The notes beneath the pieces are model-generated. The model did no database searches. It was given only the letters and a program-made list of their open reading frames with translations, and had not been told where the DNA came from. 38,394 nucleotides of DNA from positions 1 through 38,394 of the IMG/VR virus record IMGVR_UViG_3300023179_005725; one strand, given 5' to 3'. Origin of the DNA: a virus. Position numbers and translations under genes: made by a program. Positions 2,569 through 38,394 of the stretch are shown one piece after another (the stretch's first letter is position 1; each line of letters begins with the position of its first letter).

Positions 2569-2882
2569 GCCTGCTTGCTGGCCCTCTCGACCGCGAGAAC
2601 CTCTTGCTCGCGCAGGATAGCATACTGCTTCCCGTAGCTATGCACGGGCCGAGCAGACTGCTCTTCGTACAGCACGACGTCACCGACCTTCACCGCGAGG
2701 CCGACCGGCGTGCCGTTCTGCGCGAGGAACCCCTCGCCCACGGCGAGCACCCGTCCGCGCTTCATCTTGTCGATCGCGCCCGGGGACACGATGAACTTGT
2801 TCGGGCTGTGTACCCGGGAGTCGTCGGAAACTGGCTCGATCACGACCCGGTCTCGGATCGGGAAGATCGTCGTCTCGCTCAC
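2565..2882 (-). CDS. GroES-like co-chaperonin (Cpn10)
   Basis: 105 residues, the usual length of GroES. The family pattern runs through the whole protein: an N-terminal strand with DRVVIEPV, a variable mobile-loop segment (residues 19-38), then GRVLAVGEG, VKVGDVVLYEE and a C-terminal YAILREQEVLAV strand. GroES forms a heptameric lid on GroEL and is needed for encapsulated folding; phage versions such as T4 gp31 let the host GroEL accept a large capsid protein. The start is GTG at 2880-2882, overlapping the UvrD stop by four bases (GTGA), with a GAAGAGG ribosome-binding site nearby. Longer upstream frames simply re-read the UvrD gene. No GroEL is present, so it must work with a host GroEL. A capsid-assembly role is inference. 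Confidence 0.93.
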   Translation of the reverse strand: MSETTIFPIRDRVVIEPVSDDSRVHSPNKFIVSPGAIDKMKRGRVLAVGEGFLAQNGTPVGLAVKVGDVVLYEEQSARPVHSYGKQYAILREQEVLAVERASKQA

Positions 2883-5752
2883 TCTGACCTCTTCTCGTTG
2901 TGCTGGTTGAGCATCCGCTTGGCCGTGGTCGGCATGCGGCAGTCGATCGGAATGTCTCCGATGAACGGGCTGGGGCGGTTCGACTGCATCTTGCCGTACA
3001 GGAAGCGATCCTGAGCGTGCGTGAGATACAGCCTCTTCTTCGCGCGCGTCACGCCGACGTACATGAGCCTGCGCTCTTCGTGGTCTTCGATGCTGCCGGG
3101 CTTCGCCTTGCCGGACGGAAACAGCCCCTGCTCGCATCCGATCAGGAAGACGTCGTCGAACTCAAGCCCCTTGGCTGCGTGGATCGTCATCAGATGGATG
3201 GACCGCTCGTCCTCGTCTTCGGTCTCTTCGGAGAGCATCGTGATGCGCTCGACGTAATCATCGATCGTCGGCGTGTCGCCCTGAGCGCCCACGCGGGCCT
3301 CGAACTTGGCCGCATCCGTGATCATCTCTTGTAGGTTCTGCGACCTCGCAAGCGCCTCGGCGGCCTGCTTCTGCTTGCCGTCGCCACCCAGGCGGCCCGC
3401 CTCGTCGACCCAGTACTTGAGCAGGCCGCTGTTCTCCATCAGGCCCGCGACAATGTCCGAAGGCCGACCGTCCACTGCGGCGTCGCGACCGCTGCGGATC
3501 AGCGCCCGGAACGCTGCGATGCCCTGCCGCTCGCGCAGCCCGAACGCCGCCCAACGCTCGGCCTCTTCCAGCGCGTCGTAGAGACTGATTTTTCTGCTGG
3601 CAGCAAGGTCGGAGATGCGGCCGAGCGTCTTCGGGCCGATGCCGCGAGGCGGGCTGTTGATCACGCGGATGACGTCCACGTTGCTACTCGGGTTCACCAG
3701 CAGGCGCAGGTACGCGATCGCGTCTCGGATCTCGGTCCTGTCGAAGAACCGGAACCCGCCGTGCACCTTGTATCGGAGATCGGCGGCGCGAAGCTCCTCC
3801 TCTAGCGCGCGCGACTGCGCGTGCGAGCGGTACAGCACGGCGATCTCACGAGGCTGCGTTCCCGAGTCGATCAGCTTCTTGGACGTTTCGGCCACGAACT
3901 GCGCCTCTTCGCGCTCGTCGTCACACTCGACATCCCAGACGTGATCGCCTTGGCCGTTCGCGGTGTGCATCCGCTTCGGCTCTCGCGAGTCGGCGTTCCT
4001 CTCGATGATCGCAGCCGCGCCGTTGACGATGCGCTGCGTCGAACGATAGTTCTGCTCCAGCTTGACGACCTTCACGCTGGGGTAGAAGTCGCGGAACTTG
4101 CGGATGTACTCCGGCATCGCTCCGCGCCACGTGTAGATGCAGTTGTGGACGACAACGCCGTCCGCGACGTACGTCTCGTCGCGCTCGACGGCGAGCGAGT
4201 ACACCGTGCCTTCGTACCAGTCGTTCTCCATCGACTCGATGGGAACCCAGTCCGTGTTGCCGTGCCGCTGCGGCACCGGGAGCATCATCAGCCCCGGCAT
4301 CAGGTTGGCCGCGTAGCACTCGTAGAGCGTCGTGCGGCCCATGCTCTCCCACGACTTGCCCGGCAGCGGGTAGAAGGGCAGGTCGAAGTTGAGGTCGTGG
4401 TCCGCCAGACACAGCAGGCCACGGTCGTGGTTGCCGAGCGACAGCATGCCGCCCTCGGTCGTGCCGTCCTCCAGAGCCTCGAATACCTCCCCGATGCTCT
4501 GCGCGGTCATGTGCTGCGCGCCGTGCGCTGGCTCGAACGTGATCGTCGGCAGCCCGTACTTCGGACTCGTGATCGACTCGTACACGCTCGCGCCCGTGCG
4601 GCTGTCGAACGTGCCGAGCACCCACACCTTGTCGGCCTTCTCCAGGCGGGCGCGCTGGCCAAGGTGCAGCGCCCCCTCTGCGTTGAACAGCTGACACCAG
4701 CCGATCCGGAACCCGAAGCCGTCGCGCCACATCAGGTACACCACGCAGGCGTCACTGCGCCGGTCCGCCCAGCGGCACACGAGCCGGTGGTTCGACGTCA
4801 TCTGCACCGTCCGGCCACCGACGGTGACTTCGTGCATCGGGCCTTCGTACTCGCGCCTGCCTACGCGAACCCTGCGGCCGTCGCGCAGCGCGGCCCGGTC
4901 CCATCCCACCACGACGTCGCCGTCGTTCAGATCCTCGATCGCCTTGGTCTCGCCGCTGCGCGTCGTCTGGATGATGGTGCCCGGCGGATGGCACTGATCG
5001 TCGTCGCCCACCACGCACAGGTTGCCTGTCTCCGCCGCGAGTGCGCGCACGAGACGAAACTGCGGCTCGTCCGTGTCCTGGAACTCGTCGACCATCACGT
5101 GCTGCCAGCGAGACCGGATCGACGCGCCGATGTCGTCCTGGCGCTCGGATAGGTGCATCGCGTACACGATCAGGTCCGCGAAGTCGTATGCGTTCGCGGC
5201 GACCAGCTGCGCTTCGTAGCGCGACCAGATGCGACGAAACAGACGCCCGGCTTCGTCCTTGTCATCGACGTCGTTCAGCACGAGCAGCCGTCGCTTGTGC
5301 TTCTCGATCATGTCCGCGACCAGCGAGGGCTTCAGATCCGGCGGCCACGTGCGCCGCTCCTCCTTGGCCAGCGCCTCTTCGTCGCGCAGGATGGTCTTGA
5401 GCAGCGCCTCCTGGTCGTTCTCGTCGTAGATCACGAAGTCTTTCCGCCGACCGCTCTCGGGTGCGTACCTGCGGAGTATTCGGACGCAGATCGAGTGGAA
5501 CGTACCTACGCTGAGTCCCTCGGCGTGGTCGGCCAGCATCGCCACCACGCGGTCGCGAAGCTCGCGAGCAGCCTTGTTCGTGAACGTCACCGCCAGGATG
5601 CGCGACGCCGGTACCCCGTGATGGCGGACCAGGCTCGCGATGCGATGCGTGATCACGCGCGTCTTGCCGCTGCCTGCACCAGCAAACACCAGCAGCGGCC
5701 CGCTGACGTGGGACACCGCCTCCTGCTGCGACTCGTTCATGGATGCCGACAC
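2879..5752 (-). CDS. UvrD/PcrA-type superfamily 1 DNA helicase containing an intein
   Basis: 957 residues as translated, of which residues 254-537 are an intein; the spliced helicase would be 673 residues, normal for UvrD/PcrA. Visible SF1A motifs: Walker A GAGSGKT (about 25-31), TFTNKAA (56-62), GTFHS (83-87), Walker B VDEFQDT (221-227), motif III GDDDQ interrupted by the intein and resuming at IYTWRGA, QNYRST, VLYRSHAQSR, MTIHAAKGLEF and YVGVTRAKK near the end. It is a 3'-5' ATP-dependent translocase that unwinds DNA, here probably in viral replication or repair. The first codon is GTG at 5752; an ATG at 5740 is an alternative. A TTGACA promoter lies so close upstream that the transcript would be almost leaderless. 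It is the first gene of the UvrD-GroES-SGNH-Nudix cassette. Confidence 0.96.
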   Translation of the reverse strand: MSASMNESQQEAVSHVSGPLLVFAGAGSGKTRVITHRIASLVRHHGVPASRILAVTFTNKAARELRDRVVAMLADHAEGLSVGTFHSICVRILRRYAPESGRRKDFVIYDENDQEALLKTILRDEEALAKEERRTWPPDLKPSLVADMIEKHKRRLLVLNDVDDKDEAGRLFRRIWSRYEAQLVAANAYDFADLIVYAMHLSERQDDIGASIRSRWQHVMVDEFQDTDEPQFRLVRALAAETGNLCVVGDDDQCHPPGTIIQTTRSGETKAIEDLNDGDVVVGWDRAALRDGRRVRVGRREYEGPMHEVTVGGRTVQMTSNHRLVCRWADRRSDACVVYLMWRDGFGFRIGWCQLFNAEGALHLGQRARLEKADKVWVLGTFDSRTGASVYESITSPKYGLPTITFEPAHGAQHMTAQSIGEVFEALEDGTTEGGMLSLGNHDRGLLCLADHDLNFDLPFYPLPGKSWESMGRTTLYECYAANLMPGLMMLPVPQRHGNTDWVPIESMENDWYEGTVYSLAVERDETYVADGVVVHNCIYTWRGAMPEYIRKFRDFYPSVKVVKLEQNYRSTQRIVNGAAAIIERNADSREPKRMHTANGQGDHVWDVECDDEREEAQFVAETSKKLIDSGTQPREIAVLYRSHAQSRALEEELRAADLRYKVHGGFRFFDRTEIRDAIAYLRLLVNPSSNVDVIRVINSPPRGIGPKTLGRISDLAASRKISLYDALEEAERWAAFGLRERQGIAAFRALIRSGRDAAVDGRPSDIVAGLMENSGLLKYWVDEAGRLGGDGKQKQAAEALARSQNLQEMITDAAKFEARVGAQGDTPTIDDYVERITMLSEETEDEDERSIHLMTIHAAKGLEFDDVFLIGCEQGLFPSGKAKPGSIEDHEERRLMYVGVTRAKKRLYLTHAQDRFLYGKMQSNRPSPFIGDIPIDCRMPTTAKRMLNQHNEKRSE
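4142..4993 (-). other. Intein inserted in motif III of the UvrD helicase
   Basis: 284 residues from Cys254 to Asn537 of the precursor. It interrupts the conserved helicase string GDDDQ/(S)IYxWRGA, with Cys as the +1 residue in place of the usual Ser. The block A start CHPPGTIIQT, a block B-like TSNHRLV with its His, and the terminal block GTVYSLAVERDETYVADGVVVHN followed by C are all present. These are the Cys1, block-B His, penultimate His, terminal Asn and +1 Cys needed for standard splicing. The middle contains VYLMWRDGFGFRIGWC, then an ExxxSPKYGLP segment. That resembles a GIY-YIG-like or other nuclease or insert domain of inteins at this site, but I see no complete LAGLIDADG pair. Splicing is predicted, not shown. 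Confidence 0.93.
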
Positions 5753-24299: not shown

Positions 24300-24505
24300 G
24301 AGGCTTCTTGACACTTTCGCCGGTAGCTACGAAACGTCCAAGTCCAACCACCAGTCCTGGTGGTGCTCCGTCGGCGCACACACGACCTGTAGTGCCTCGA
24401 TTTTTCGATCGGCGGAGTGCTTGACCGACTCAAGGCGGCGGCGTACCGTCGCCGTCCCTGGTGAGGAAGGAACCGCGCCAGGAACGATCAAGTCCCCCAA
24501 AGGCG

Positions 24506-24536
24506 AGCGCCCAGAGCCGGAAACTCTGGGCGCTCT
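24506..24536 (+). other. Perfect 12-bp hairpin in the helicase leader
   Basis: GAGCGCCCAGAG (24506-24517), loop CCGGAAA, CTCTGGGCGCTC (24525-24536). A second hairpin CGAAGC/GCTTCG follows at 24542-24563. Neither is followed by a T run, so they look like leader structure, an attenuator or part of the origin rather than an intrinsic terminator. Confidence 0.7.
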
Positions 24537-24665
24537 AGGCCGAAGCTGTCAGAGGCGCTTCGACATGAACAACGAGACTGGGAAGGAGTCAGCCCCGACG
24601 TCGGCGCGAAGCCTGGCACCCTGCACAGGGCACGTCAAGCACATTCACTCCTGCGGAGCACCGCA

Positions 24666-27446
24666 GTGAGCCGCCGTCAGAAGAGGGGCCGTCTCCCTGG
24701 TGAATCAGAGATCGAGTATCAGGCTCGGCTCGCCAACATCCGCCAAGCAGAGGCACAGGCCAAGCGTGCGAAGCGAGAACGACGTCCGGGTGAGTCCGAT
24801 GCCGAGTACCAGTCTCGGATGTCGCTGCTGCGACAGCAGGAGGCCGACGCTCGTCGTGAGCGCCGTGTTTCTACGCGCGGCTCTTCGCCCGACGGACGGA
24901 CACGACCCCCCCCGACGGACGGACAAATCAGGCCCGGACCGGACGGACACTGTGTCCGTCCGGTCGGGGACTGGACGGACACAGAAATGTCCGTCCAGTC
25001 CGACGCGAAAACCAGCGAAATCACAGCGTTTTTCGACGATGTCCGTCCGGTCGGTGTCCGTCCGGTCGGACCTGCCGACGTCCTGCCCCCCTCCTATGGA
25101 GGGGGGGCAGGACGGACGTCGGCAGACGAATGTCCGTCCAGTCCCTGTCCGTCCAGTCCCTGTCCGTCCAGTCCCTGTCCGTCCAGTCCCGAGGCTGAAA
25201 GCGAACTGATGCCACCGACCTCCGCCGAAGAGTCTGATCGCCGAAACAACGTGATCACGCTCTTCGCGGACAAGCGCCCCGCCGCGCCGCCGTTCGACTT
25301 CGCGGAGCGCGAGGAGTTGCTCTGGGCGCGCATCGCGCAGCTGGAAATCAGGCTGGCGGACGCCGAACAGGCTCTCGCGTCGGCGCAGGCGGCGGTCAGC
25401 GCGCTGCAAGATGCCGTCGTGTGGCTCCAGCGACCCGCGCGCTCGCAGCCCGTCGAGCCTGCCGAGGCCGAAGCTGCGCCGTCCGCCGTCGAGCCGGAGC
25501 CGCACGCTTCCGCGACGGACGACGTCGTGCACGAGTCGAGCGTGGACGAGCCGACGCGCGACGCGATCTGCGCCGTCTGGATGTACCTGTGTTCGAGGTA
25601 CGTGGCCGATCGCGCCGCCCACATCGCGCTCTCGGACGTAGACGTCGTCGCGCTGGAGCAGGTCTGGTCGCAGGCCAGCGAGGCGGCGTATCAGAACCGG
25701 CCCAGGGCGGAAGACCTGTTCTACGTATGGGCCGAACGCTTCCTGCTCGATCAGGCCGTTCCCGAAGCAGAGAAGAACCCTCGTGGCTTCTGCGTGAGAA
25801 GCCACCTGTTCCCGCGCCGATTGCCGGAGGGTCTCTGCGAGAAGTGGCCGCCGATCGAACCGGAAGAAGACGACTATCTACAGTGCTTCCCGTTCGACGT
25901 GATCCGCGTCAGTGGAGCCAGGCTGCCGCTGGGGGCGCGCATGTCGCAGCCCGCTGACAACGAGCGCGCCGAAGCGCCGCCGAAGGCGTTCCGGTGTCTG
26001 GTCGAAGTAGAGCGCGCAGAGGCCGACGGCGAGACCGTCGAAGAGCACCTGCGACGCCGCGTCGAGTGCCAGCACGCGTTGATCGTCGCGGCGCGCGCGT
26101 ATCCGAAGGCGCTGATGGCTACGGGCCTGCGATCGACCGACTTCGACGCGCCCGACTACGGACTGCTCTGGATGGCGATCGAAAACGTCATGCGGACCAA
26201 CCCGCAGGCGGACTCGGTCTCGGACGGCGAGTTCCTGGAGCACGCCCGCAAGCTCGGCGCGCGCTTCCGAACCCCGGACGGTCACAACATCCTGCTGCGG
26301 CTCTGCCGAGACCCGGCCGTCGGCGTCGAGTACGCGCTTACGGTTCTCGCGAAGGAGCTTCGGGCGACCGACGATCTCCGTGTGTGGGCGGAGACCGCGA
26401 AGAACTTCGCGGAGCGCGTTCAGCGCACGGCGGACCCGCTGGCCCTGCGGCACGAGTGGGTCGTCGAGGCGCAGGCGATCGCGCAGCGGTACGACAACGG
26501 AACCAGCGTCAAGTCGCTCGACGAGTCGGCGCAGGCGTGGCGCTCGAAGGGGTCCGCGGGAAGCATCGTGCCCACCGGCTTCTCGGAGATCGATCGCCCT
26601 ACCGGCGGCGGTCTCGGCCGTGGCGACATGATGGTGATCGGCGGCGGGACCAACCACGGCAAGAGCTACTTCGCGACCAAGATGCTGAAGAACCAGGCAG
26701 ATCTCGGCAAGACCTGCTTGTACATCTCGGTCGAAGACTCGGAAGAGCTTCTGCTGTGCCGCATGCTCGCGGACTACGCGGACCCACCGCTTGCGCCGAA
26801 GGACATCCGCGTAGCGATGCACGGCTCGTCGCCCGTCGCGGACCCGAAGATCATCGACGCCGCAGCGGTGAAGATGCGCGCGCACCAGCAGGGTCGCGTC
26901 AAGACCGTGCACGCGCCGAAGTGGACGGTGTCGCAGGTGTGCAACTCGATCCGCCAGCATCGCTATCTGCACGGCATCGACATGGTCGTCGTCGACTACA
27001 TCCAAGCCGTTCAGCCGGATCAGACGTCGAACAACAAGACGCAAGACGTCGCGTTCATCGTCAGCGAACTCAAGAAGTGCGCGCACGAGGTCGGCGTCGC
27101 GCTGGTCGTGCTCTCGCAGTACGCGCGCGACGAGTACCGCAACGGCACCGAGCCGACGGTCAACTCGTGTAAGTACGCGGGCGACATCGAGAACGAAGCC
27201 GAGGTGATGCTGCTTCTCTGGCGTGACGAAGACCACCAGCTGTGGGCCAAGCTCGCGAAGCTGAAGTGGGCGTCTTCGGTTGGCCATCGGTACATCGTCG
27301 CGACGCACGAAGTGACCGGCGCGGTGCTCGACTGGACGCGCAAGATTGAGGATCCGGCGTCCCAGCAAGACCAGCAACAGCAGCAGCAGCAGCGCGGCCG
27401 TGGTGGACAGAGGCCGTTCCGGCGGCCGTCGGGAGGCAACCCGTGA
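24666..27446 (+). CDS. DnaB-type replicative helicase with long N-terminal extension
   Basis: 926 residues from GTG at 24666, with GGAG 8 bases upstream. N-terminus: two copies of a 29-residue basic repeat (LPGESEIEYQARLANIRQAE and RPGESDAEYQSRMSLLRQQE). Residues 75-180 are a low-complexity Pro/Gly/Asp segment encoded by the iteron array, including four CPSSP units. Then a coiled coil (about 208-245), a helical region, a DnaB N-domain-like stretch (about 440-590) and the RecA core: Walker A GGGTNHGKSYF (about 658-668), YISVEDSEE, Walker B DMVVVDYIQAV (about 770) and VALVVLSQYARDE. A Gln run (QQDQQQQQQQ) lies near the C-terminus. It is a hexameric 5'-3' helicase for the viral fork. About twice the usual DnaB length, due to the N-terminal half. 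Confidence 0.93.
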   Translation: MSRRQKRGRLPGESEIEYQARLANIRQAEAQAKRAKRERRPGESDAEYQSRMSLLRQQEADARRERRVSTRGSSPDGRTRPPPTDGQIRPGPDGHCVRPVGDWTDTEMSVQSDAKTSEITAFFDDVRPVGVRPVGPADVLPPSYGGGAGRTSADECPSSPCPSSPCPSSPCPSSPEAESELMPPTSAEESDRRNNVITLFADKRPAAPPFDFAEREELLWARIAQLEIRLADAEQALASAQAAVSALQDAVVWLQRPARSQPVEPAEAEAAPSAVEPEPHASATDDVVHESSVDEPTRDAICAVWMYLCSRYVADRAAHIALSDVDVVALEQVWSQASEAAYQNRPRAEDLFYVWAERFLLDQAVPEAEKNPRGFCVRSHLFPRRLPEGLCEKWPPIEPEEDDYLQCFPFDVIRVSGARLPLGARMSQPADNERAEAPPKAFRCLVEVERAEADGETVEEHLRRRVECQHALIVAARAYPKALMATGLRSTDFDAPDYGLLWMAIENVMRTNPQADSVSDGEFLEHARKLGARFRTPDGHNILLRLCRDPAVGVEYALTVLAKELRATDDLRVWAETAKNFAERVQRTADPLALRHEWVVEAQAIAQRYDNGTSVKSLDESAQAWRSKGSAGSIVPTGFSEIDRPTGGGLGRGDMMVIGGGTNHGKSYFATKMLKNQADLGKTCLYISVEDSEELLLCRMLADYADPPLAPKDIRVAMHGSSPVADPKIIDAAAVKMRAHQQGRVKTVHAPKWTVSQVCNSIRQHRYLHGIDMVVVDYIQAVQPDQTSNNKTQDVAFIVSELKKCAHEVGVALVVLSQYARDEYRNGTEPTVNSCKYAGDIENEAEVMLLLWRDEDHQLWAKLAKLKWASSVGHRYIVATHEVTGAVLDWTRKIEDPASQQDQQQQQQQRGRGGQRPFRRPSGGNP
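24894..25184. repeat. Iteron array with palindromes inside the helicase gene (candidate origin)
   Basis: Thirteen copies of GTCCGTCC or its complement: GGACGGAC at 24894, 24917, 24941, 24973, 25110; GTCCGTCC at 24954, 24989, 25041, 25056, 25132, 25147, 25162, 25177. The last four form an exact 15-base tandem repeat. Convergent copies form a dyad with 14-base perfect arms and a 1-base loop (24937-24965) and another with 11-base arms (24971-24998). A long stem of about 22 pairs with a 4-base bulge spans 25073-25124. A short AT-richer patch lies at 25006-25040. Elsewhere in the window I see only isolated copies. Confidence 0.85.
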
Positions 27447-28504
27447 GCAAGATCACGATCCGAGAAGTGGGCCGACTGTGCGGCGTCGCACTGCCGTCTG
27501 CGCCCGGCAAGGCGCAGTGCCCGATCCGCAAGCACAAGCGCGACGACAAGACGTTCCGCGTGTTCTTGTCGCGAAGCGGCGACGAGATCTGGAAGTGCTG
27601 GTCGTGCGACGAGCCGGAGAACGTCGGTGACGCGGTCGCCCTGTACGGGCAACTCAAGCAGCTAGACCGCAAGGACGCGTGGCGGCAGCTACGCGACATG
27701 GGCTACGAGGTGCCCGGGGCCGATCGGCTTCGCCCGATCGCTTCGGCGCGACCGGCCGCCTCGGCGCAAGTGTCGACGAAGCCGAAGATCGGCGTTCGAG
27801 GCGCGCGCAACGACCGGGTGCTCGCGCTACCGAAGGCGAGGCTCGACGAGTGGTCGTCGCTGCCGGACGAGCACGTGAACCGCTTCCTGCGTTCGCGTGG
27901 CTTCTCCGAGTCTTTCGACCACCGGAGCTACGGCGTGATCGCGATGCCCGCGGACTGCGTCGGGTTCGTCTACGTGGACCCGATGACGGGAACGCCGTGC
28001 CGCGTGAAGGTTCGCGCGATTCGCGAAAAGCGGTTTTGGAACGAGCCGCGTCCCGACCCCGCGCAGCCTGGAGCCAAGGCCGTAGCGCCGCTCTGGCTCG
28101 CTGACCGGCTCTCGCTCGCGCTGACGCCGCTCGACAGCATCGTGATCACCGAGGGCGAGCTAGACGCGCTCGCGCTCGTGTCCGTCGGCATCTCGAACGT
28201 CGTCAGCCTGCCCGACGGCTCGGCCAGCGCGACCACCGTGAGCCTGGAGCCGCTCTGCGGCATCTTCAGAAACTGGTACGTAGCGGTCGATCAGGACGAG
28301 TCGGGCGAAAAAGCCTGGAGATACCTACGGGACCGTGCGCGTGACTCGGGTGCCGAAGCGTTCCGCGTTGCCTGGGCCACCCTCGACGGCGACGATGTTC
28401 GCCACTTCAAGGACGCCAACGAGGCGCTGGCCGCCGGGTTCGCTCGCGCAGACTTCGTTCGGTGCATCGAACTTGCTGGGACGCCGCGCAGGCGCGTGGC
28501 GTGA
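27443..28504 (+). CDS. DnaG-like primase (zinc finger plus TOPRIM domain)
   Basis: 353 residues from GTG at 27443, with GGGAGG 6 bases upstream and a GTGA overlap with the helicase stop. Residues 15-56 are a zinc-binding module (CPIRKH ... KCWSC) like the CHC2 finger of phage and bacterial primases. Residues about 230-320 form a TOPRIM domain: IVITEGELDALALVSVGISNVVSLPDG (conserved Glu) and YVAVDQDESGEKAWRYL (DxD-like acidic motif), with a later KDANEAL. It would lay RNA primers at the fork with the adjacent DnaB-type helicase. It is shorter than bacterial DnaG, lacking an obvious C-terminal helicase-binding domain, as in many phage primases. Coupled translation with the helicase suggests a stoichiometric primosome. 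Confidence 0.92.
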   Translation: MSKITIREVGRLCGVALPSAPGKAQCPIRKHKRDDKTFRVFLSRSGDEIWKCWSCDEPENVGDAVALYGQLKQLDRKDAWRQLRDMGYEVPGADRLRPIASARPAASAQVSTKPKIGVRGARNDRVLALPKARLDEWSSLPDEHVNRFLRSRGFSESFDHRSYGVIAMPADCVGFVYVDPMTGTPCRVKVRAIREKRFWNEPRPDPAQPGAKAVAPLWLADRLSLALTPLDSIVITEGELDALALVSVGISNVVSLPDGSASATTVSLEPLCGIFRNWYVAVDQDESGEKAWRYLRDRARDSGAEAFRVAWATLDGDDVRHFKDANEALAAGFARADFVRCIELAGTPRRRVA

Positions 28505-28550: not shown

Positions 28551-29393
28551 GTGGAAGAGCACCAGCAGGCCATCGAGCGAGTGAAGCTCGTCCAGAAGAG
28601 CGCCGAGGTCGCACGTCGCGTGAGCGCGGGCCGCGCGGACGCGTCGAAGACGGCGGCCCGTCTGATGATCAGAGGTCTACTGCCCGCGCATCTGGGCGAC
28701 GAGTCGACCTGGGCGGCCGACAACGCTGCGCCGTCGGCGTCGGCTCCCGGCCGAGGGGTGCGTGAGGCTCTCGCGGACTGCGTCGCGCCGCTGGCGGAAG
28801 GCGCACTGATCGGCGGCGTGTTGCCGAGTACGCTCGCGACGCTTCTGCTGGCTGCGTACGACACGGAGCTACGGTGCCCGCTGGAGCGGATCCCGCAGCC
28901 GGACGTGTCCGTCGTGCGCGTTCTCGCGCACGTCGAGTCGCTCGGCCTGTCGCTCAAGCCGTCGCTCGCGGCGCAGGTGGCCCGACGCGCAACGCTCGTG
29001 CTGCTCTCGCACGTCAAGCAGCGCCGTCCGATCGTGCTGCCTCCCACCGTCCGTCCATCGGACGACCCGCCCGAGGCAGAAGCTCCGCCCAGCGAGGCCG
29101 CGGACGCCGTGACCAGTCCTGCCGCGCAAGCGGGGCGACAGGTTCGTGGTTACGTACGGGTGTCTGGGAACATCGGTTGGGCCGCTGGCGTCGTAGAGAC
29201 GCCAGTCGGCACGGTTCTGGAGGCGTTGCTCGCAGACGAGCGCGAGCGCGAGTCCCTTCAGAGGGACCAGGCTCGCAGCCAGCCGTCGGTTGTGGTCTGG
29301 TGGGACGGACGCGCGCGCGTCGTGCCGAAGGAAGCGGTGACTCCATCGTCGAGATCGGCGTGGGTCAGCTGGTGCAAGGAGCAGAACACGTGA
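28551..29393 (+). CDS. Hypothetical protein, first gene of a small operon
   Basis: 280 residues from GTG at 28551, immediately after the promoter. The N-terminal 50 residues are basic and helical (IERVKLVQKSAEVARRVSAGRADASKTAARLMIRG). The middle is helical and Leu/Ala-rich (LIGGVLPSTLATLLLAAYDTEL, LAAQVARRATLVLLSHVKQRRP), then a Pro/Glu linker, then a beta-rich C-terminal part (VRGYVRVSGNIGWAAGVVETPVGTVLEALL; SVVVWWDGRARVVPKEAV). No family recognised and no membrane span certain. Being alone under a tightly placed operator, a regulatory role is conceivable but not shown. Confidence 0.72.
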   Translation: MEEHQQAIERVKLVQKSAEVARRVSAGRADASKTAARLMIRGLLPAHLGDESTWAADNAAPSASAPGRGVREALADCVAPLAEGALIGGVLPSTLATLLLAAYDTELRCPLERIPQPDVSVVRVLAHVESLGLSLKPSLAAQVARRATLVLLSHVKQRRPIVLPPTVRPSDDPPEAEAPPSEAADAVTSPAAQAGRQVRGYVRVSGNIGWAAGVVETPVGTVLEALLADERERESLQRDQARSQPSVVVWWDGRARVVPKEAVTPSSRSAWVSWCKEQNT

Positions 29394-32849: not shown

Positions 32850-34043
32850 ATGGCGAAGCTCACCAACGTGCGCGAACGGGTCCATCAGCCCTTCAGAGAT
32901 ACGCTGATTCGCACCTCGGGCCTGTACCCGTCGGCAGTGCAGGATCGTACGGACCTGTTCACCAAGGCGGGGAAGAACGACGCGGAGAGCAACCTGAAGA
33001 ACGGCTCGACGCTTCCGAGCGACCAGAGCATGGTCGTGCTCGCGCTGCGGGTGTTCACCTGGTTCCGCGCGTCGCAGCTTCGCCCGTTTCCGGTGTGCTG
33101 CGACTTCCGGCCCGGTCCTAGCGTGGCCAGTCCGGCTGGCGGCTCGTCGCTGAACGAGCAGCAGATCCTGATTGCCGCGCGGCCGGATGGGCCGTGTACC
33201 TCGACGGTTCTGCTGTGCAACGGCGACATTCAGCCGACGGCCGACTGCAACACCCTCGCTCCGATTCTCAACGGGTCGGCGATCGGTAACTACGAGGACG
33301 TCTATCGCCTGCACTGGCAGGCGGAAGAGCAGCTGCTGTGGAGCTTCGGCTCCGGGCAGAAGTTCTCGCTCACGAGCATGCCCACGGCGTACTTTCCGTA
33401 CGGTGGGGGTATCTACGGCGACATGGGTCACGCAGGCACGGCCTGCTGCGCGGCTATCGTGTTGGAGTCGACGGGTTCGCCCAGTGCACCGCCGGTCATT
33501 CGTGGCCTGGGCGGGTGCTGCGCCGGATCTGTGATCGGGGTCAGCGTGGAGTTGTCGGAGTCGCCTGGGAGCTATGTCGTCACTGTCGAAGGCAAGGGGA
33601 TCGCATCGTTCACGGCCACGATCCCGGCCTCCAGCTTCCCGATCACGTTCCAGGTTGGTCCGGACGGGGGCGATCCCTGCCTGGAGATCACGCTGTACGC
33701 GCCGACGCCTGGCATCGCTCCGATTTCCGGGCCGTTGTACGCCTACTTGTACGAAATCCGCCGCGATTGCTCCTGCGGGCCGCTGATTCACTGGGAAAAT
33801 GGCACGCCGGACCACAGCGGGATCCTCCGCTTGGCTCGGGCGATTCTGTTGCCGCCGAGGCAGAATGTGCTCTGCCAGGCGCAGATCGTTCGGCTTCCCG
33901 ACGGCGGCAACGCTGGCACGTTCGGCTCCACGCAGGGGTCGCGCGACATGCTCTCGCTCACGGGCAACCTCAACGCCGTGGACGCGCTCCAGAAGGTGAT
34001 CAGCTTCACCTTCGACGGCCTCTTCAGCCGAGACGTTCAGTAA
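32850..34043 (+). CDS. Candidate major capsid protein, large paralogue
   Basis: 397 residues, ATG 32850 with GGAG 5 bases upstream. It shares nearly all of the smaller 34201 protein: MAKLTNVRERVHQPFRDTLI, SNLKNGSTLPSDQSMVVLAL, NYEDVYRLHWQAEEQLLWSF, TAYFPYGGG, then DHSGILRLARAILLPPRQNV and KVISFTFDGLFSRDVQ at the C-terminus. Between YFPYGGGIYG (190) and LIHW (312) it carries about 120 extra residues, beta-rich and Cys-containing (ACC, GGCC, CSC), absent from the paralogue; a shorter divergent stretch lies at 76-140. The pattern of paired strands suits a jelly-roll capsid subunit. Capsid identity is inferred from position, paralogy and fold pattern, not from a named match. A GTAACTAC site lies 10 bases upstream. 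Confidence 0.65.
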   Translation: MAKLTNVRERVHQPFRDTLIRTSGLYPSAVQDRTDLFTKAGKNDAESNLKNGSTLPSDQSMVVLALRVFTWFRASQLRPFPVCCDFRPGPSVASPAGGSSLNEQQILIAARPDGPCTSTVLLCNGDIQPTADCNTLAPILNGSAIGNYEDVYRLHWQAEEQLLWSFGSGQKFSLTSMPTAYFPYGGGIYGDMGHAGTACCAAIVLESTGSPSAPPVIRGLGGCCAGSVIGVSVELSESPGSYVVTVEGKGIASFTATIPASSFPITFQVGPDGGDPCLEITLYAPTPGIAPISGPLYAYLYEIRRDCSCGPLIHWENGTPDHSGILRLARAILLPPRQNVLCQAQIVRLPDGGNAGTFGSTQGSRDMLSLTGNLNAVDALQKVISFTFDGLFSRDVQ

Positions 34044-34200: not shown

Positions 34201-34977
34201 ATGGCGAAGCTCACCAACGTGCGCGAGCGGGTGCACCAGCCCTTCCGCGATACTCTCATTCGTAGCTCCGGCTACTACGCGTCGAACGTCCAGGACCGCA
34301 CCGAGCTGTTCACCCAGGCGGGCAAGGACGACGGCGCGTCGAACCTCAAGAACGGCTCGACGCTGCCCAGCGACCAGTCGATGGTCGTCCTGGCGCTCCG
34401 CGTCTTCACGTGGTTCCGCGCTTCGGTGGCGCGCGGCGCGACGGTCGACTGCTCGGGCACGGGCGCGGGTCCGTTCGTCCTCACGTCGAACGGCGACTAC
34501 AACGCGGCGACCGTCCAGTGCGGCGGCACGGGCGTGCAGACGCTGAACGGCCAGGCCGTCGGCAACTACCAGGACGTCTACCGCCTCCACTGGCAGGCGG
34601 AGGAGCAGCTGCTCTGGTCGTTCGGGTCGGGCCAGAAGCTGTCGCTCACGAGCATGCCCACGGCGTACTTCCCGTACGGCGGCGGCCTGTTCGGCAACAA
34701 CGGCGGCGTCACGGATCTGATTCACTGGGGAAACGGCACGCCGGACCACAGCGGTATCCTCCGCCTGGCCCGTGCGATTCTCTTGCCGCCTCGCCAGAAC
34801 GTCCTCTGCCAGGCGCAGATCGTGAACCTGCCGGACGGCGGGAACGCGGGCATCTTCGGCTCCACGCAGGGGTCGCGGAACATGCTCTCGCTCACGAGCA
34901 ACCTCAACGCGGTCGACCTCGTCAACAAGGTCATCTCGTTCACGTTCGACGGCCTCTTCAGCCGCGACGTCCAGTAA
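34201..34977 (+). CDS. Candidate major capsid protein, small paralogue
   Basis: 258 residues, ATG 34201. It has the same N-terminal 75 residues and C-terminal 90 residues as the 32850 protein, with only a short loop (GNNGGVTD, about 165-172) where that protein has its extra domain. Strands are plausible at SMVVLALRVFTWF, YRLHWQAEEQLLWSF, ILRLARAILLPP, VLCQAQIV and KVISFTFDG. It has its own strong promoter and structured leader, and codons are strongly GC-ending, suggesting it is the most expressed capsid-type protein. Paired large and small paralogous capsid proteins are known in tailless membrane viruses such as P23-77, though there the two are far more diverged. Identity here is inference. 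Confidence 0.65.
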   Translation: MAKLTNVRERVHQPFRDTLIRSSGYYASNVQDRTELFTQAGKDDGASNLKNGSTLPSDQSMVVLALRVFTWFRASVARGATVDCSGTGAGPFVLTSNGDYNAATVQCGGTGVQTLNGQAVGNYQDVYRLHWQAEEQLLWSFGSGQKLSLTSMPTAYFPYGGGLFGNNGGVTDLIHWGNGTPDHSGILRLARAILLPPRQNVLCQAQIVNLPDGGNAGIFGSTQGSRNMLSLTSNLNAVDLVNKVISFTFDGLFSRDVQ

Positions 34978-38011: not shown

Positions 38012-38394
38012 ATGTCGTTCGTTGTCTATCGGGCTCGTCCCTCTTCCGGCTACTTCCTGGGTTTCGGAGCGTCGCTGTCGACTGGTGGTGTCTTCGATCC
38101 GGCGGCAGTGTGGACCAAGTGGGCGACCGGGGGGTCGTCAGCGAACGCGGCGTCCAAGTTGATCAACCAGGCTCTCATGGACCTCGGTGCGATCCCTGTG
38201 GGTACTCCCAGTGCTGTCTGGACCAACTCCGCCGCGTTCAAGAGTGTGACGGGTTCCCCGTTCCCCGCAGCCACAGCGACTGCTAGCAAGGCGGCGTTGC
38301 AGACGCTGGCAGCGAAACTCGACGCAAGGGGCTCTGGCACGGTTCCCGGCACCACGCCCGGCACCACGCCCGGCACCACGCCCGGCACCACGCC
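38012..38394 (+). CDS. Partial paralogue of the 37152 protein, runs off the window
   Basis: 127 complete codons from ATG 38012 with AAGG 9 bases upstream; no stop before the end. It resembles the 37152 protein: SGYFLGFGA, FDPAAVWTKW, then a helical PG_binding-like stretch (AASKLINQALMDLGAIPVGT; AVWTNSAAFKSVTG; ASKAALQTLAAKLD). It then enters a Pro-Gly-Thr-Thr repeat encoded by four 12-base units. By analogy with its paralogue it should end in a membrane span beyond the window. Confidence 0.72.
   Translation, partial: MSFVVYRARPSSGYFLGFGASLSTGGVFDPAAVWTKWATGGSSANAASKLINQALMDLGAIPVGTPSAVWTNSAAFKSVTGSPFPAATATASKAALQTLAAKLDARGSGTVPGTTPGTTPGTTPGTT
38345..38394 (+). repeat. 12-bp tandem repeat at the window edge
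   Basis: Four exact copies of CCCGGCACCACG (38345-38392) plus two bases, encoding PGTT units. The contig stops inside the repeat, a common place for short-read assemblies to break. Confidence 0.9.

Follow-up and report, generated by a model that had tools for sequence, protein, structure and literature searches.

Origins within initiator genes

In phage lambda and the Stx phages P27 and 933W, the replication origin lies within the central part of the initiator gene, and extra iterons add residues to the O protein (PMC7466680). The lambda origin contains four iterons next to an AT-rich tract, and the helicase is recruited by a separate protein, P. In the Streptomyces plasmid pWTY27, RepA binds iterons on opposite strands together with a long inverted repeat (PMC3583192).

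The locus described here lies in the window, the whole 38,394-bp stretch of viral DNA that was analysed. It contains a repeat array that we read, with a probability of roughly 0.83, as a replication origin inside its own initiator gene in the style of lambda O, with iterons that would be bound by the initiator module and would receive the attached DnaB. The lambda and Stx origins resemble it in that the iterons sit mid-gene and encode a protein stretch whose length varies with iteron number (PMC7466680). In both settings the initiator also adjoins a helicase-recruiting gene. Compared with lambda, the iterons of the window are shorter, more numerous, present in both orientations, and accompanied by strong dyads. 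The window's initiator, fused to a DnaB of its own, matches no known family. Like the window, pWTY27 has a short direct repeat that occurs on both strands plus a long inverted repeat, but its iteron region is non-coding and outside the rep gene, and its replication proteins are different. The alpha protein of satellite phage P4 is a single polypeptide that both binds the origin and acts as a helicase, as proposed for the window, but its helicase belongs to a different superfamily, it has a fused primase, and its origin lies outside the gene. An origin within an initiator gene is already known from lambda. The new elements are the virus group itself, an initiator family that matches nothing in the libraries, a DnaB fusion without a loader, and a dyad-rich array. 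A literature search, with most subscription journals outside its coverage, found no initiator-DnaB fusion with iterons.

An initiator-like module fused to DnaB

The array is carried by a 926-aa ORF (24666–27446) with a GTG start that overlaps the stop of a short upstream ORF. The downstream part of the product has a DnaB C-terminal ATPase domain (Table 1). The initial annotation had placed the array in the replicative helicase gene; the ORF is the same, but the array falls in the initiator-like module upstream of DnaB and not in the helicase proper. This module (searched as 24666–25949) had no matches in Pfam or PHROG, Lambda O and other known phage initiator families included, and none among 50,697 phage records. 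Its status as an initiator rests on its position and its relatives. The AF2 model of the module has low confidence apart from the N-terminus, where the RRPGESxxEYxxR block is modeled as two helices (pLDDT about 80–94). A DnaC-like loader gene is absent from the window cassette and from the group of close relatives.

Other features were found at the 5′ end of the gene. The short ORF (24565–24669) ends in a TGA that overlaps the GTG of the initiator-helicase gene; this GTGA arrangement suggests that the two are translationally coupled. A strong 12-bp hairpin at 24505–24535 lies between divergent arms, about 130 bp 5′ of the gene. Rfam and tRNA scans were empty.

Table 1. Coordinates of features at the proposed origin and its cassette (window positions; names beginning with G are related contigs)
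Feature	Position	Strand	Basis
Initiator-like module, residues 1–425 of the 926-aa ORF	24666–25940	+	Separate counterpart genes directly beside the helicase in G004, G006, G007, G027
Pair of basic, helical RRPGESxxEYxxR modules; putative DNA-binding domain	24690–24866	+	Sequence, AF2, motif in relatives
Iteron/palindrome array, proposed replication origin	24888–25190		Repeat counts, frame/strand classes, recoding null
Dyad 1, two iterons head to head, 1-nt centre	24937–24965		Arms 24937–24950/24952–24965, perfect 14-bp
Dyad 2, 6-nt centre	24968–25001		Arms 24968–24981/24988–25001, perfect 14-bp
AT-richer patch, possible unwinding element	25003–25042		47% GC; statistically ordinary
Two direct iterons, 15-bp spacing	25040–25068	+	Sequence
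Long bulged hairpin, C-run/G-run stem	25072–25125		Sequence and folding
Four exact tandem iterons TGTCCGTCCAGTCCC, 15-bp units, encoding CPSSP x4	25131–25190	+	Sequence
Cumulative GC-skew minimum of the window	25301		Skew computation
DnaB-family helicase module, from ATG 25941; separate gene in relatives	25941–27446	+	DnaB_C, E = 1.8e-31
TOPRIM primase gene, same cassette, following the 926-aa ORF	27443–28504	+	Sequence scan

Composition of the array

Exact copies of GTCCGTCC/GGACGGAC number 13 inside 24894–25184 (291 bp), and this recount agrees with the number first reported. The whole window holds 18 copies of GTCCGTCC, compared with 3.7 expected and a maximum of 11 across 100 shuffles. Twelve of the array copies extend to the longer form, TGTCCGTCC, which has one further copy outside the array, for a window expectation of 0.62. 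Two dyads had been described with arms of 14 and 11 bp. Both are present, but the shorter arm length was wrong, as each has perfect 14-bp arms. The bulged stem and the four exact 15-base tandem repeats of the initial annotation were also recovered. The stem has 13 perfect inner pairs and folds as single-stranded DNA at −26.9 kcal/mol (z = −8.0).

The AT-richer patch that had been singled out exists but is unremarkable: 58% of random segments of initiator-module length hold a patch that is equally AT-rich, and we therefore dropped it as evidence for an origin. Its GC content is ordinary for the window, and it is lower in several relatives.

The array is a feature of the DNA

The copies occupy all six frame/strand classes of the ORF. 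Synonymous recodings that kept the amino acids and drew codons from the segment's own set (1,000 trials) gave a mean of 3.1 copies of GTCCGTCC and a maximum of 7, compared with the 13 observed. Inverted 8-mer pairs numbered 140, for a recoding mean of 15 and a maximum of 46. Exclusion of the CPSSP block left nine copies, still extreme against a recoding maximum of six. Because recodings of the same protein never exceed seven copies, the array is a DNA-level feature. The protein accommodates it as a predicted disordered linker, with pLDDT mostly below 50.

Slippage in a low-complexity linker could leave repeats with no DNA function, and both the predicted disorder and the four tandem 15-mers, which are in frame, would fit such an origin. 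Inverted copies, the use of all six frame/strand classes, and the recoding tests all speak against slippage, as do relatives with arrays at a similar position but of different sequence, and we consider it extremely unlikely.

A location 5′ of the true gene start was suspected at first, since the high-GC third-position signal typical of the helicase begins only near 25206. It was rejected because a single open frame runs from the N-terminal motif through the downstream helicase, and relatives have counterparts of each, which places the array inside the coding sequence. A repeat array within the coding sequence of an initiator is the arrangement seen in lambda.

Three of four close relatives carry iterons in the equivalent gene

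A direct search with the whole ORF returned only helicase relatives at 27% identity; a conserved capsid-like protein gave access to the closer ones. The four closest (G004, G006, G007, and G027) were chosen by helicase identity, with repeats playing no part. Their helicases are 35%–41% identical to the window module. In each, the helicase is its own gene and is abutted by an initiator-like gene with the RRPGESxxEYxxR N-terminus found in the window; the rest of the module aligns weakly (19%–23% identity overall). Since the two genes are separate and abutting in all four, the long ORF of the window is read, from sequence, as a probable fusion of two genes with a former boundary near ATG 25941.

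Three of these four initiator-like genes contain iterons of their own, unrelated to those of the window: GGTSAGAAT in G004 (nine copies), AAATGATCC in G007 (five copies), and GGTGWCAC in G027 (nine hits, with palindromic sites scored on both strands). The G006 gene shows no clear iterons but does have a hairpin whose arms are 21 bp long. At all five loci, the window included, the initiator-like gene or module contains the strongest palindrome (chance about 4e-6). Comparison with relatives, as the initial annotation had advised, found iterons or dyads persisting in the equivalent gene, but not the same iteron sequences. The position of the array seems to be fixed while the iteron sequence turns over, which is new relative to lambda.

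GC skew switches near the array

The cumulative GC-skew minimum of the window falls about 110 bp past the array; a switch near 25 kb had been named as support for an origin. In nine of 12 contigs, no more than 2.2 kb separates the minimum from the initiator gene (P about 2e-10 under uniform placement), and in six the distance is at most 500 bp. Minima were located at 163,698 in G004, 55,462 in G002, 18,251 in G017, and 82,510 in G025; that of G006, at 41,622, falls within the hairpin, and those of G001, G011, and G012 lie no more than 2.2 kb from the gene. The minimum lies away from the gene in G007, G008, and G010, although G007 shows a local one. In G004, the minimum and maximum are separated by half a genome, as expected for a bidirectionally replicated circle.

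The skew is partly confounded, because gene direction changes near many arrays as well. After orientation was fitted, an effect of side on skew was kept in the window (t = 3.6), G004, G001, G002, G008, G011, and G017, was weak in G006 and G010, and was absent in G007, G012, and G025. This skew minimum and the arrays in the equivalent gene of relatives together support the initial assignment of the array as a replication origin.

Distant relatives and wider scans

More distant relatives have different iterons, some of them within recognised phage initiator genes. G001 has a CCGAAGCAAA array inside a gene matching "replication initiation protein" (E = 3.5e-12), G010 has GTGACAC sites inside a gene matching Phage_rep_org_N, G002 has GTCACGNANCGTGAC palindromes, and G008, G011, and G012 have still other arrays. 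Several of these relatives illustrate the pattern and do not test it, because the array helped to locate their initiator gene. In G028, G016, G019, and G009, the region upstream of the helicase showed no strong array. Where relatives have a winged-helix-type initiator, an ATPase-loader-like gene mostly separates it from DnaB, and PHROG recognised this gene as DnaC-like in all three tested.

An additional partial array in G001, directly 3′ of the initiator gene and before the primase gene, would suit an autoregulatory operator at which the initiator module represses its own operon while replication starts elsewhere. Operator binding is common among initiators, and dyads are well suited to dimeric repressors. 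This explanation is nevertheless unlikely for the window, where the array lies 220–525 bp within the gene and a sigma-70 scan found no promoter-like site; in many relatives, moreover, the array matches the GC-skew switch. A centromere-like partition site or a DNA-packaging site near the origin could also consist of clustered repeats, but the scanned window proteins include no partition gene, and in some relatives the arrays lie inside genes matching replication initiators, which makes such a site very unlikely.

A scan of viral contigs for the exact iteron found nothing. A looser scan for triples of GTCCGTCC returned 93 stretches. Of these, 13 were inspected, and most proved to be simple or coding repeats without an apparent tie to replication.

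Proposed mechanism

In the preferred reading, an origin within the initiator gene, the initiator module would bind the TGTCCGTCC[A/G]GTC[C/G] iterons and the dyads, probably through its basic N-terminal helices. The N-terminal module is a better candidate for the iteron binder than the product encoded at 28551. The bound initiator would deform or open the DNA, and its binding would deliver the covalently attached DnaB straight to the origin. Direct delivery is proposed because the initiator is fused to DnaB and the cassette has no DnaC-like loader gene. The adjacent primase would then start bidirectional synthesis.

We give about even odds to a fuller reading: a loader-free, self-recruiting initiator-DnaB fusion with the origin in its own linker, belonging to an initiator family absent from the searched libraries and an undescribed virus group, in which the iteron and the binding domain are replaced together while position stays fixed. 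The locus would give this virus group, two of whose proteins had no match among 50,697 phage records, a compact candidate replicon. It offers a natural test of whether an initiator tethered to DnaB can substitute for a helicase loader. Because most of a dozen related contigs have different repeats at the equivalent place, initiator-iteron co-evolution may be directly measurable.

Other features of the window and its relatives

In G007, two AGCGTACGGATAAT palindromes lie at about 47750–47910 (L196), near the GC-skew maximum of the contig, and are possibly a terminator or terminus site. The right end of the window (38330–38394) falls within a tandem CCCGGCACCACG repeat, so the contig was probably cut by assembly. 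A UvrD-like helicase at 2879–5752 is split after GDDDQ by an intein-like block that starts with CHPPGT and ends with VVHN before a Cys. Tandem paralogous proteins are encoded at 32850–34043 and 34201–34977, the first with an inserted block of ~130 residues. The pair is conserved across about 25 viral contigs, a large share of them 54–182 kb in length, and had no match in phage records. These paralogues are possible jelly-roll capsid proteins, although the model is weak (best E = 0.045).
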